Below are positions 17,066-28,406 of a DNA stretch of 64,000 nt, piece by piece. The stretch covers positions 1,612,001 through 1,676,000 of the forward strand of contig NZ_JAFBCB010000001.1 of the NCBI RefSeq assembly GCF_016907455.1, read 5' to 3'. Source of the DNA: Brachybacterium muris. GTDB lineage: Bacteria > Actinomycetota > Actinomycetes > Actinomycetales > Dermabacteraceae. Position 1 is the stretch's first letter. Every line of letters begins with the position of its first letter. The notes beneath the pieces were generated by a model. It ran no database searches and was not told the origin of the DNA. It worked only from the letters and a program-made list of their open reading frames with translations. Made by a program: the position numbers and the translations under genes.

Positions 17066-19836
17066 ACCGCCTGCGCCACCCCCGCACCCTGATCGTCGTC
17101 CTCCTGCTGCCACTGCTGGTGGCCGCGGTGGGCATGTGGGCGCTCAGCGGTCGCGTCGACCGCATCGACGAGGTGCCCGCCGCCGTGGTGAACCTCGACG
17201 AGGGCACCACCATGGAGGTCGACGGCGAGGAGCAGATGGTGCCCTTCGGCCGGCTGCTGGCCGGTGCACTCACCCAGCCCGGCACCGTCGAGGGTCAGGA
17301 AGCACCGGAGATGACCGGTTTCGACTGGCGCCTCACCGACGCCGAGGACGCCCGCCAGGGCCTGCGCGACGGCACCTATGCCGCGGTGGTCACCATCCCC
17401 GCCGACTTCTCCGACAAGGTGGGCACCCTGGGCACCCCCGACGCGGTCCAGGCGCAGCTCCAGGTCACCACCAACGATGCCAGTGGGCAGCTGAACGCAC
17501 TGGTGGGCACCGCGGTCGCGCAGGCCTCGGCCTTTACCATGGGCGGGGAGATGGCCCGTCAGTACCTCGACGGGATCTACCTCGGGTTCAACGACCTGCA
17601 GTCCAGCTTCGACGAGGCCGCCGACGGTGCCCGCGAACTGGCCGACGGCACCTCCGAGCTCGACGACGGTCTGGGGCAGACCGCCGACGGCACCGAGGAA
17701 CTCGCTGATGGCGCCGATGAGGCCGCTGGGGGCACCCGCGAACTGGCCGACGGCGCATGGGGCCTTGCCGATGGCACCCGCGCGGCGGCCGATGGCAACC
17801 GCCAGCTGGCGGACGGACTGGGCGGCCTGGCCGACGGCACCGACGGGGTCGCCGGCGGCAGCCGCGACCTGGCCACGGGCCTGGACGAGCTGGCGGGCGG
17901 CGTCGAGGGCGCGGCCTCCGGCACCGACGAGCTCGCCACCGGCCTCGATGAGCTGGCCGATGGCACCGAGGAACTGGCCGACGGCGCCACCGCACTGGAG
18001 ACCGGTCTGACCGGTACCGACACCGAGCCGGGTCTGCTGGACGGTGCGGACGCGCTGCGCAGCGGCGTCGAGGGCGACGGCACCCCGGAGAACCCGGGCC
18101 TGGTGGCCGGCGCCGACCAGCTCGCCACGGGCCTGGAGGGCTACGCCGACGGTGTGCAGAGCGCCTACGACGGTCTAAGCGTCGGACTGAACGGTGACGG
18201 AACCGAGCAGAACCCTGGCCTGGTCGCGGGCAGCCGCGGCGTGGCCGACGGCGCCACGCAGGTGGCGGACGGTACCGCGGAACTGCGCGATGGGATCGCC
18301 GGGGACGAGGCCGCCGGTGTCCCGAGCATGCTGGACCTGGCACGGGCGCTCGAGGCCCAGACATGCGCTGTCGCTGACGCGGATCCTGCTGACCTAGGTG
18401 CCCGGGCCCTGTGCACCCAGGCCGAGGGCAACCTCGCCTACGTCCAGGGCGTGGACGAGGGTCTGAACGGCACCGAGGGCAATCCCGGTCTCGTCACCGG
18501 CACCCGCGGAGTCGCCGATGGTGCGTCGGGCATCGCCGACGGCACCGCTGCCCTCGCGGGCGGCGTCGACACCGCCTTCAACGGCGACGGCACCGCCGAG
18601 AACCCGGGCCTGATCGCTCCGGCGCAGGCCCTGGCCACCGGTGCCCGGACCAGCGCCGATTCCGCCCCTGTGCTGGTGGACGGCGTGGGTCAGCTGGCCG
18701 ACGGGCTGCACGCCTACGCCGATGGCGTGGGCGAGTTCTCCGACGGCGCCTCCGAGCTCGCCACCGGCGCCCGGGACGCCGCTGATGGCGCCGGTGAGCT
18801 CTCCGGTGGTCTCGCCCAGCTGTCGGACGGCACCCGTGCCAGCGCCGACGGCGCCGATGACCTGGCCGACGGAGCCGGACAGCTCGCTGACGGTGCCCGC
18901 TCCAGCGCCGACGGCGCCGGTGAACTGGCCGATGGCGCAGGACAGCTGGCCGACGGCACCCGTGAGCTCGCCGAGGGCAGTGACGAGCTGGCCGGTGGCA
19001 TCGGTGAGCTGGCCTCCGGGACGGAGGAGCTGGCTGACGGCACCCGTCAGCTGGCCGATGGCAGCACGGAGCTGGCCGACGGCACCGACGAGCTGGCCAC
19101 CGGTCTGCGCGAGGGCGCAGACTCGGTCCCCACCTACTCCGAGTCGGAGCGGGAGCGGATGGCCGAGATGGGTGCTGAGCCGATCACCTCCGTCGCCGAG
19201 CGTCAGAACGAGGCCGCCGGTGCCTCCACTGCGACCTTCCCCTTCGTGGCTGCCCTGGCACTGTGGATGGGCGCGTTCGCGACGTTCCTGCTGCTGCCGG
19301 CGCTGTCCGGGCGTCTGTTGGACCGGGCCCTGCCGATGTGGCAGGTGGCGCTGCGCTCCCTGGCCCCGGCCGTGGGCATCGCCGTGGTGCAGGCCGTGGC
19401 TGTGCTCGCGGTGATCACCGCCATGGGTGTGTCCCCCGTGTCGCCGCTCGGTGTGGGGGTGGTGGCGCTGGCGGGCGCGATCATGTTCGCGGTGCTGCAC
19501 CAGGCGCTGATGGCCCTGTGCGGCGATCGCATCGGCCGGATCGTGTCGGTCCTGCTGCTGGTGCTGCAGGCCGTGGCGCTGGTGGGCATCGTGCCGGTGC
19601 AGACCGCTCCCCCGCTGCTGCAGTCGGTCAGCGACCTGATGCCTCTGACGGTCGTCTCCCAGGGGCTGGTGCACGCGGCCCTCGGTGGCCAGGTCACCTC
19701 GCTGGGCAGTGTGCTGGGCTCGATCCTGGCGTGGGCTCTGATCGGCGTGGTAGTGACCCTCGTGGCCACTCGCAACGCCCGTAGCTCGCGCCGCACCGAG
19801 CACGGCGCGGTGGGCATGGTGCCGGCCGCGGCCTGA
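17062..19836 (+). CDS. YhgE/Pip-domain giant membrane protein with ADG heptad repeats
   Basis: 924 residues. One N-terminal membrane helix (TLIVVLLLPLLVAAVGMWAL, residues 10-29) is followed by the YhgE/Pip N-terminal domain (VPAAVVNLDEG, AAVVTIPADFS). Residues about 188-700 are dominated by a seven-residue pattern, ELADGTx, predicted to form a long extracellular rod. Five C-terminal helices follow from about residue 725. YhgE/Pip proteins resemble ABC-2 permeases and include phage-infection proteins and type VII secretion partners. The start overlaps the MMPL stop, so the two products probably work together. Cargo is unknown. Confidence 0.82.
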   Translation: MNRLRHPRTLIVVLLLPLLVAAVGMWALSGRVDRIDEVPAAVVNLDEGTTMEVDGEEQMVPFGRLLAGALTQPGTVEGQEAPEMTGFDWRLTDAEDARQGLRDGTYAAVVTIPADFSDKVGTLGTPDAVQAQLQVTTNDASGQLNALVGTAVAQASAFTMGGEMARQYLDGIYLGFNDLQSSFDEAADGARELADGTSELDDGLGQTADGTEELADGADEAAGGTRELADGAWGLADGTRAAADGNRQLADGLGGLADGTDGVAGGSRDLATGLDELAGGVEGAASGTDELATGLDELADGTEELADGATALETGLTGTDTEPGLLDGADALRSGVEGDGTPENPGLVAGADQLATGLEGYADGVQSAYDGLSVGLNGDGTEQNPGLVAGSRGVADGATQVADGTAELRDGIAGDEAAGVPSMLDLARALEAQTCAVADADPADLGARALCTQAEGNLAYVQGVDEGLNGTEGNPGLVTGTRGVADGASGIADGTAALAGGVDTAFNGDGTAENPGLIAPAQALATGARTSADSAPVLVDGVGQLADGLHAYADGVGEFSDGASELATGARDAADGAGELSGGLAQLSDGTRASADGADDLADGAGQLADGARSSADGAGELADGAGQLADGTRELAEGSDELAGGIGELASGTEELADGTRQLADGSTELADGTDELATGLREGADSVPTYSESERERMAEMGAEPITSVAERQNEAAGASTATFPFVAALALWMGAFATFLLLPALSGRLLDRALPMWQVALRSLAPAVGIAVVQAVAVLAVITAMGVSPVSPLGVGVVALAGAIMFAVLHQALMALCGDRIGRIVSVLLLVLQAVALVGIVPVQTAPPLLQSVSDLMPLTVVSQGLVHAALGGQVTSLGSVLGSILAWALIGVVVTLVATRNARSSRRTEHGAVGMVPAAA
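17620..19120 (+). repeat. Intragenic repeat tract encoding (x)LADGTx heptads
   Basis: The DNA repeats a 21-bp unit around GCCGACGGCACC, with synonymous variation, many times inside the YhgE gene. There are interruptions near 18010-18110, 18180-18300, 18340-18480 and 18560-18640 coding for non-heptad segments that share GDGTxxNPGL. Such tracts can change length by slippage or recombination. Confidence 0.8.
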
Positions 19837-26173: not shown

Positions 26174-27868
26174 TCAGAAGGGTGGGGGTTCGTCGTACGG
26201 GGACGGACGGGCTGGGGGTTCGTCGCCGGGGTCAGGTGTCCCTCGTTGTTGTTTGCGGTGTTTGATGGTGAGGGCGCGTTGTTCGCGGTGGTCCTGGTAG
26301 GCGGCCCAGGCGGCGGTGAGGTCGGCGATCGTGGCGGGGGTGGCCAGGTCGGTGTCGTCCCGGACCGCGACCGATGCTCCGGCACGGATCTCCCACTGCG
26401 TCACCCCGGGCTTCGTGGTGGGGGTGGGGTGGCGGATCGGGTCGAGCAGGCCGGTGGTCTTGAGCCGGTGGTGCATCCAGCACAGCAGGTGCAGGTTCTC
26501 TACCTCCGTCTGCCCGCCCTGTTCGGGGTTCGTGTGGTCGTATTCCTGGATGTGGTCGCATTCGGTGGCCCACGAGGAGGCCCGGGTGCAGCCGGGGACC
26601 GCGCAGGTCGCGTGCCGCAGGCGGAGGTGCTCCAGCATCGGCTTGCTCGGCCGGTAGGTGTCTGCTGAGAGGGGAAGGAACGCGCCCGATGCGGGATCGG
26701 TCAGGACCCGGTACCAGACCTCGCTGTCCCCGGCGAGCTCCCGTGCCATCGACGCGGGGACCGGGATGGTGCCGTCCAGGGTGCCGGGTTCCTCGGAGAT
26801 GCCCAGCAGAGTCAGGGCCGGGACGGTCACGGTGAGACGGAAACGGGCTGCCGGGACCTTCACCCCGTCCGTGTCCAGGGTCGCGCCGGTGAGCAGCTCG
26901 TACCGGATCCTGGCCAGGGACAGGGGCTTGCCGTGCGCTTCGACGGCGCCGGTGGCATCCAAGGGCAGGGGTTCGCCGGCTTCGAGGGCGCGGCGCTGGG
27001 TGTCCTGGATCGCGCGGGCTGCGGCATCCAGGCGCTGGGCGAGGTCCAGGATCTCCGGGATCGGCCCGGTGACCTGGAGGCAGCCGATACCGTCCTCCCC
27101 CACGGGCAGCAGGTCCACGCGGCGGCGGCCTTCGGGGGTGTGCTGGGCGGGGGTCCCACGGGATGCTTCGATACGGGTCAGGGCGTGGGAGAGTTTGCGG
27201 CGGTACTGCTCGACCGTGACATCCAGCGGCCACGACGCGACCTGGGCGTCCAGGGCGGCGAGGTCCGGCTCGGGAAACATCCGGGTGCGGAGCAGGAGAC
27301 GCCCGAACCATTCCACCGGGAACACCCCGGCCTCCAGCCGGGCGAAGCACCGCGGGAAGCTGGTGAGGGCCCGGTGGGCGTCGTTGATGCGGTGGAACGC
27401 GACACCACGGGTGCAGCGCAGCGCCAGAGCCACCGCCAGGGTCTCTGCCTCGTACACGTCCAGGCAGGCCGGGTCCGCGTCCTTGGGGATCTCCGTCTCC
27501 CGCCAGAACGCGGCCAGGCGCCGGTAGTGGGCGGCCTGGCGGCGGGACTCGGCCGGCCCCTCAGCCCAGATCTCCTGCAGCCCAGGATCGGTCAGCAGGC
27601 CCCCCAGGATCGGATCCTCCAGATCCCCACCCGGCGGCACCACCACACCAGCAGCGGGGGCAGCAGTCAGGGGCGCAGGGACAGGGTCCGGGATGGGGAC
27701 GAGATCGGGGGCGGGCATGAGTGCTGGGGAGTGCGCGCGCCCGTCAGCAGCGGATGACTGCGTCGAACCCGGGGGTGAAGGCGACGGCAGTGCCACGCAG
27801 GCCGAGTCGTCGACCTGATCGCTACTGCGCTTGCGCGGATCGTCCTGCAACTCACCCATGCCGCCCAT
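26174..27868 (-). CDS. DUF222/13E12-type HNH endonuclease
   Basis: 564 residues. After a Pro/Ser-rich N-terminal tail of about 90 residues, a DUF222 helical domain follows (LGGLLTDPGLQEIWAEG onward). The C-terminal HNH nuclease is CAVPGC...ATECDHIQEYDH...NLHLLCWMHHRLKT, with Cys pairs for zinc and the catalytic DH. I chose ATG 27868 because AAGGGGG lies six bases before it; the open frame continues upstream into the non-coding repeat array. Such genes are multicopy in many actinomycetes (REP13E12 in mycobacteria) and their role is unclear. Confidence 0.83.
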   Translation of the reverse strand: MGGMGELQDDPRKRSSDQVDDSACVALPSPSPPGSTQSSAADGRAHSPALMPAPDLVPIPDPVPAPLTAAPAAGVVVPPGGDLEDPILGGLLTDPGLQEIWAEGPAESRRQAAHYRRLAAFWRETEIPKDADPACLDVYEAETLAVALALRCTRGVAFHRINDAHRALTSFPRCFARLEAGVFPVEWFGRLLLRTRMFPEPDLAALDAQVASWPLDVTVEQYRRKLSHALTRIEASRGTPAQHTPEGRRRVDLLPVGEDGIGCLQVTGPIPEILDLAQRLDAAARAIQDTQRRALEAGEPLPLDATGAVEAHGKPLSLARIRYELLTGATLDTDGVKVPAARFRLTVTVPALTLLGISEEPGTLDGTIPVPASMARELAGDSEVWYRVLTDPASGAFLPLSADTYRPSKPMLEHLRLRHATCAVPGCTRASSWATECDHIQEYDHTNPEQGGQTEVENLHLLCWMHHRLKTTGLLDPIRHPTPTTKPGVTQWEIRAGASVAVRDDTDLATPATIADLTAAWAAYQDHREQRALTIKHRKQQRGTPDPGDEPPARPSPYDEPPPF

Positions 27869-27969
27869 CACACACCCCCTTGCCCACGGACCGATTTGAT
27901 TACTTGATTGATTCGATCCTAGAGGCCACCTCCGACAATTCAAGCCCCACCCGGAAATGTGCACAAGAA

Positions 27970-28406
27970 TGTGGAAAACACGGTATTGGGGAGGAACACC
28001 GAAAGGCGATGAAGGCGGGAGGGTGGGCCGATGGAGACAACTACCGGCGCCATACGCCGACCAGTGCAGCGTTCGTGAACTGCGGGAAGAGTGGGCTGGC
28101 GGACCGGTGGGTCGGCGGAGTCGCGGGGCTATGGGCCGATGGACCGGTGGAAATGCGGAGTTGCGGGGTTGCGGGCAGACCCCACTCTCACCCAGAAATG
28201 TGGATAACCAACCCCTGGGGAGGAACTCGGCCCCCAAACGGGGAAATCCCTGTGGATAACCGACCCCTGGGGAGGAACACCTCCCAGTCAGACGGGGCAA
28301 TCCCTGTGGATAACCGAACGATGTGGCTCAACCATCCCCCGCTTACCCTCATTGCTCACCAAGAATGGGGATGACCCGGTGGAAAACCCTACATGGGGGA
28401 GGAACC
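27970..28406. repeat. Non-coding array of TGTGGATAA (DnaA-box-like) plus GGGGAGGAAC units
   Basis: A two-word unit recurs: TGTGGATAACC or a variant, then after a short gap TGGGGAGGAAC(A)CC. Copies: 27970 (TGTGGAAAAC) with 27987; 28199 with 28215; 28251 with 28267; 28305 (first word only); a degenerate TGTGGCTCAACC at 28322; 28378 (GGTGGAAAACC) with 28394. The three central copies form a tandem repeat of 52 and 54 bp that also shares ACGGGG(A/C)AATCCC. TGTGGATAA is the exact complement of the DnaA box TTATCCACA. No convincing gene lies in 27869-28463; 28000-28198 shows nothing I recognise. Confidence 0.75.

Follow-up and report, generated by a model that had tools for sequence, protein, structure and literature searches.

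The competence operators described in Bacillota, the ComX/sigma-X cin-box and the ComK box, are short elements common to genes of transformation. Natural transformation in the Actinobacteria was found more than four decades ago (PMC4322843, accessible part), and a 2026 paper, in its accessible part, calls the competence regulon of M. luteus unknown (PMC12849477). The com system of M. luteus, which belongs to the same order in the NCBI taxonomy as the organism studied here, comprises comEA/EC, tad-1 and Mlut_14650/14660. As at the sites reported below, a Flp/Tad pilus goes together with comEA/EC, and cpaB-like and HTH_17 genes are implicated, there by genetics: mutations in Mlut_14660 alter comEA/EC promoter activity, with binding considered putative. 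Unlike here, the available text on that system describes no operator or regulon (PMC8467076).

The window, a stretch of 64,000 nucleotides of the Brachybacterium muris genome (one contig, 3.65 Mb), carries upstream of a DUF222/HNH gene a dense group of repeated words (Table 1). The exact word TGTGGATAA occurs at 28199, 28251 and 28305, with a mean of 0.00 in shuffled windows, and the paired word GTGGAWAAC-N7-TGGGGAGGAAC, scanned over the window with up to three mismatches tolerated, is found on the plus strand at 27971, 28200, 28252 and 28379, with 0.01 expected. The spacer is a constant 7 nt in all four pairs; the copy at 28379 has one mismatch, and the word at 28378 begins with G rather than T. 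Searched alone in the window with up to two mismatches, TGGGGAGGAAC is not enriched (29 versus 23.4 expected), so the signal is carried by the fixed pairing. In minus-strand orientation the two words form a single 27-bp operator, GTTCCTCCCCA-N7-GTNNTCCAC, directed towards the DUF222/HNH gene and present 5' of it in four copies plus a decayed one. Every word listed in the original prediction is present, and its 52/54-bp tandem repeat is confirmed; the word at 28322 that it called degenerate is also there, as the left half of the decayed fifth box. The promoter appears to match the PafBC-type layout, with a TTGTC element about 8 nt 5' of TANNNT, TTGTCGGAG resembling the consensus of the PafBC/RecA-NDp element. 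Elsewhere in the window, positions 17683-19103 hold tandem repeats of 63 bp and 21 bp, probably coding, within what we take to be a YhgE/Pip-type protein.

Table 1. Features of the window upstream of and including the DUF222/HNH gene
Feature	Position	Strand	Remarks
DUF222/HNH endonuclease gene	26174..27868	-	564 aa; Pfam DUF222 E=7.8e-07, HNH E=2.8e-04; C-terminus ...PYDEPPPF
-10 element TAGGAT	27916..27921	-	by sequence
TTGTCGGAG	27930..27938	-	8 nt before -10; resembles PafBC/RecA-NDp promoter element
Operator box 1 (proximal)	27971..27997	-	GTTCCTCCCCA-N7-GTTTTCCAC; 49 nt from box end to -10
52/54-bp tandem duplication	28199..28317	-	includes boxes 2 and 3; the decayed copy begins within it
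Operator box 2	28200..28226	-	GTTCCTCCCCA-N7-GTTATCCAC
Operator box 3	28252..28278	-	GTTCCTCCCCA-N7-GTTATCCAC
Decayed fifth box (third tandem copy)	28306..28332	-	right half intact, left half degenerate
Operator box 4 (distal)	28379..28405	-	left half with 1 mismatch

Throughout the genome, the operator pair is found at 31 sites with up to three mismatches and at none when the pattern is reversed; a looser form gives 44 sites versus 12 reversed. The claim of a non-random, non-coding array is borne out by these numbers, and the random occurrence that the original prediction had named as speaking against a function is not what the genome holds. The best-site set consists of the 33 looser-form matches out of 44 that have no or one mismatch, 19 of which do not belong to DUF222 genes. 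The genome scan and domain searches place a box 5' of comEA-comEC, yraN-comM-dprA, recA, an ssb paralog, xseA, comF (with a weak TIGR00201 match), HEPN_SAV_6107-dinB, SAF/cpaB, the gene of a CpaE homolog (cpaE) with tadA, recQ (with a match below the equivalog cut-off), and RNase_T exonuclease and M23 peptidase genes. Boxes also precede REase_MTES_1575-like genes (L039, L041, L056, L059 and L062); of the first two and the last two, which were scanned for domains, L062 is above the cut-off, L041 and L059 are below it and L039 has no match. Another box precedes a gene taken as DUF4192-like, the protein of which has no Pfam match at 0.001 and the G091 counterpart of which is a DUF4192 protein (E=3.7e-33). 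As a separate observation, a transposase-like ORF (MVRKIRAKLVLQLRAEG..., IS21-like by eye) recurs near L040, L043, L047, L056, L059, L062, L065, L068 and L103, and at L043 adjoins a short miaB-like ORF.

The boxes have a fixed position relative to the genes that they precede. Of the 19 best sites outside DUF222 promoters, 15 have an ATG 51-53 nt 3' of the box, with at most four in any other 3-nt bin, and the remaining four lack one at that distance. The starts of recA, HEPN-dinB and the ssb paralog lie farther downstream, and the 766-kb site has no ATG at 51-53 nt. The comEA site, which has two mismatches and is for that reason outside the best-site set and the 15 of 19, has its ATG at 52 nt too. 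TANNNT is found 39-40 nt from the box at nine of these 19 sites; the corresponding distance at the window gene is 49 nt. From the two spacings together we infer that the box-controlled transcripts are probably leaderless.

With the box in one orientation and at a fixed distance before com, Tad-pilus, recombination and nuclease genes, the array reads as a competence-regulon operator array rather than as a cluster of DnaA boxes or a target of the HNH protein. It very likely represents stacked operators of one sequence-specific transcription factor governing a natural-competence regulon of DNA uptake and recombination, and the "transcription-factor array" that figured among several options in the original prediction thus appears, on sequence grounds, to be the best-supported reading. 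Like the Bacillota operators, one short element is common to comEA/EC, comF, dprA, recA, ssb and pilus genes, that is, to core transformation genes, and keeps a fixed position to promoter and start (15 of 19 at 51-53 nt). Unlike the cin-box and the ComK box, it is a direct repeat of another sequence, located around -52 to -78 at promoters that are probably leaderless, and not a sigma-factor -10; unlike Bacillota competence regulons, the set includes DUF222/HNH, REase_MTES_1575-type and DUF4192-type genes.

The right halves of the array read TTATCCACA or TTTTCCAC, the former a DnaA-box word, and most of the pairs listed in genome G191 end in TTATCCACAG; a DnaA-box cluster, with DnaA being titrated or itself acting as transcription factor, would account for such words. 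This explanation is nevertheless very improbable. The element, unlike DnaA boxes, is bipartite, and its left half, TTCCTCCCCA, lacks the CACA core: TCCCCA stands in 31 of the 33 best sites and CACA in none, part of the invariance of the conserved columns coming from the choice of sites by similarity. The pairing is not explained by DnaA, as the original prediction had held, and the titration that it proposed fares poorly: TTNTNCACA fits 10 of 33 right halves (23 violate it), only two of the 19 outside DUF222 promoters, and no left half, and C and T are equally frequent at position 2 of the right half (15 of 33 sites each). An oriC was looked for at two contig ends without being seen, so the comparison does not extend to the DnaA boxes of the origin.

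The genome contains 11 DUF222/HNH genes, 10 recognized by DUF222 and one, L061, by an HNH match only, its sequence being about 45% identical to those of L046 and L052. A correctly oriented box lies within 620 nt of nine of them; L045 and L050 have half-sites only over this distance, and L045 has two boxes in the opposite orientation. Multi-box arrays (4, 2, 2 and 2 boxes) stand before four of the 11 genes, and the 19 other sites are all single. That multi-box arrays are confined to DUF222/HNH genes in this genome would suit a DNA target, resolution or homing site of the DUF222/HNH protein, also put forward originally. Such a role is scarcely credible, since the motif does not always adjoin these genes: 19 members of the best-site set of 33 stand 5' of unrelated genes, and in 15 cases box and start codon are separated by a fixed distance, for which a cleavage site would have no need. 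Additional half-sites, for example TTTTCCACAT, recur at 12-bp steps in the promoters of the window gene, L060, L061 and L065, which suggests head-to-tail binding at DUF222 promoters.

TTGTC precedes a TANNNT-like -10 at recA and at five of the 11 DUF222/HNH promoters, as in PafBC/RecA-NDp promoters. Many repair genes are under PafBC (PMC8223512, accessible part), and RecA, RecQ, XseA and DinB as targets would also suit a general repair regulon; the boxes might then be operators through which PafBC, or a protein acting with it, controls a DNA-damage/recombination regulon, the com genes being included incidentally. We consider this unlikely, because TTGTC is a separate proximal element, whereas the box is an upstream one also found at genes without TTGTC, and because boxes stand at the comEA, comF, yraN-dprA, cpaB and cpaE-tadA promoters, pilus and uptake genes not being repair genes.

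The operator, in its full form, is nearly specific to Brachybacterium. Eleven of the 12 genomes of the genus have exact copies of the looser pair, against none of the 186 others of the order; a scan of 84,980 species gives 34 hits, 22 of them in Brachybacterium, and an ORF of at least 100 aa begins 50-53 nt downstream of 14 of these 22 and of none of the 12 others. Other species of the genus have the box before recA, HEPN, ssb, yraN, cpaB, recQ, cpaE, exonuclease and DUF222 genes, as named by eye from the translations. The DUF222 ortholog of B. epidermidis (L237, 73% identity over the matched part) has retained two boxes, 169 bp apart and 1.8-2.0 kb upstream of the gene. Absence of the tandem copies from orthologous loci had been named as an argument against a function: the 52/54-bp copies are indeed missing from L237, but the proximal box is kept, at the same 49 nt from TAGGAT as in the window. 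About 1.8 kb of other DNA separates the box promoter from the DUF222 ortholog at L237/L072 (B. epidermidis and G104). Three viral contigs (L238-L240) carry an exact box-like word.

Outside the genus, several comEA promoters of other families have TCCAC, a half-site of the operator, at the corresponding position. In the order, 31 of the 59 genomes scored have a TCCAC that ends 50-54 nt 5' of the start codon of comEA, with 19 permuted words averaging 0.58 of 28 and 0.47 of 31 genomes (maximum 2). The 59 comEA loci are 29 of the 30 of a first set, L168 being dropped as the second piece of the same gene, and all 30 of a second. The half-site is lacking in 28 of the 59, including two of three congeners by the strict word, both of which have the variant TCCCC before comEA. 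The paired repeat TCCACAG-N18..24-TCCACAG is found 571 times in 198 genomes versus 65 for its reverse; enrichment is slight or absent in families f6 (8 versus 2), f7 (4 versus 5), f10 (6 versus 1), f19 (7 versus 3), f4 (1 versus 0) and f20 (3 versus 3).

Two genomes of two other families, G023 and G091, hold 16 and 20 paired repeats, respectively; 35 of these 36 sites were examined, G023 C17:580-615 being left out, and Pfam was run on 16 of their proteins. The repeat precedes comEA (L172, L193), recA (L179; L189 by eye), yraN (L187; L181 by eye), the genes of a comF-like Pribosyltran protein (L200) and a RecQ-like helicase (L173), SAF/RcpC (cpaB/SAF, L186), SSB (L184), T2SSE (L176) and ParA/CpaE-like proteins (L182, L197), as well as DUF559/AbiEi (L190), DUF4192 (L191) and a DUF222 gene (L177, E=8.4e-32) without HNH match. 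Five more G023 loci resemble DUF222 at the N-terminus (L169, L170, L171, L174 and L178), unconfirmed by Pfam: L171 and L178 have no Pfam match, and L169, L170 and L174, partly masked or cut, were outside the scan. A start lies 49-53 nt downstream of the repeat at 23 of the 35 loci, as counted by a script that favoured starts in that range.

For the factor that binds the boxes, a small HTH_17/excisionase-like protein similar to Mlut_14660 (G000:C1:2261954-2262181) is compatible with the competence-regulon reading, but we regard its being the regulator as rather doubtful. Searches at E<=1e-8 detect it in 152 of 198 genomes, and its gene is divergent from a SAF/CpaB-like gene, as Mlut_14660 is from Mlut_14650 in M. 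luteus (PMC8467076, accessible part); BldC, another small MerR-like protein, binds direct repeats (PMC5859096, accessible part). Families f4 and f20, without the protein, are nearly without paired repeats (1 versus 0 and 3 versus 3), and family-level absence of the two gives a Fisher p of 0.004 over lineages that are not independent. Against this, 13 of the 31 genomes that lack the protein (E<=1e-8) have the comEA half-site, versus 18 of the 28 that contain it; five of the 13 belong to f20, in which one genome holds a divergent copy (E=2e-5), and seven genomes without the protein have at least three paired repeats. With divergent homologs possible, co-occurrence gives the protein no clear support, and it is kept as a candidate only. 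A single-sequence search for solved-structure relatives of this protein returned nothing convincing, the best hit (E 0.006) being an unrelated molecule. A second HTH_17 paralog, 54% identical, is encoded in this genome at G000:C1:1259232-1259444. The response regulator Mlut_14110 was considered and not kept, nor was MraZ, which had been considered for TGGGGA: by eye, the mraZ promoter (L044) has GTGGGG-like repeats at 10-bp steps, versus 17-bp here.

The probable membership of the DUF222/HNH genes in a competence regulon directs attention to their proteins. The HNH-motif residues D438-H439, N458 and H466-H467 are invariant in five aligned proteins. The SSB tail is known to recruit partner proteins, and the C-terminal end of the window protein, PYDEPPPF, can be set beside the acidic tip of the housekeeping SSB (L241), YDDPPF; other DUF222/HNH proteins of the genome end in EFDDPPF and QYGDPPF. 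PPF/PPY-type ends are carried by six of the 11 (the window protein, L045, L046, L052, L060 and L061), and L050, L064, L065, L066 and L067 have no SSB-like tip. Among five further Brachybacterium proteins, the tip is found in L209, L213 and L214 and not in L210 and L229; ortholog L237 has a different C-terminal end, and L211 comprises two pieces, both broken. No such tip is present on L242, L090 and L184, the SSB paralogs linked to a box. By analogy, the SSB-like tip of the DUF222/HNH proteins may recruit SSB partners. With a mean pLDDT of 47.6, the structure that AlphaFold predicted for the DUF222 protein was too poor for use; a single-sequence search gave no solved-structure relative at E<=0.1, and no close relatives were found in viral contigs.

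These elements can be assembled into a scheme in which an oligomer arranged head to tail would bind some 52-78 bp 5' of the gene start, most of the genes being leaderless, and would activate a promoter of housekeeping type. The DUF222/HNH genes would be members of the regulon. At the window gene, where the proximal box lies above a PafBC-like promoter, expression could respond to competence as well as to DNA damage; higher occupancy and output would follow from the additional boxes farther upstream. The DUF222/HNH protein itself may act on taken-up or recombining DNA. Activation through the boxes, like the competence of these species, is what we infer from the sequences.

Most likely, Brachybacterium and related actinobacteria possess a set of DNA-uptake genes, this regulon, that has not been described before. 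No such operator appears in the titles or abstract openings of the literature on actinobacterial competence that was searched, a partial corpus that mostly leaves out subscription papers, and among the papers mentioning DUF222 in that corpus none has competence in its title. A wider reading is possible, although we would lean somewhat against it: a competence regulon of high-GC Gram-positives, undescribed so far and extending over the order, with a regulator that binds direct repeats, the DUF222/HNH nucleases being competence effectors, many of which would dock by their SSB-like tip on SSB-partner proteins at single-stranded transforming DNA, with the SSB paralog of the regulon lacking the tip. 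The operator is defined and has about 30 sites in a single genome, so that a regulon can be proposed before any experiment and the missing regulator becomes accessible to DNA pull-down; the DUF222/HNH family, which is poorly understood, would gain a testable role in DNA uptake.
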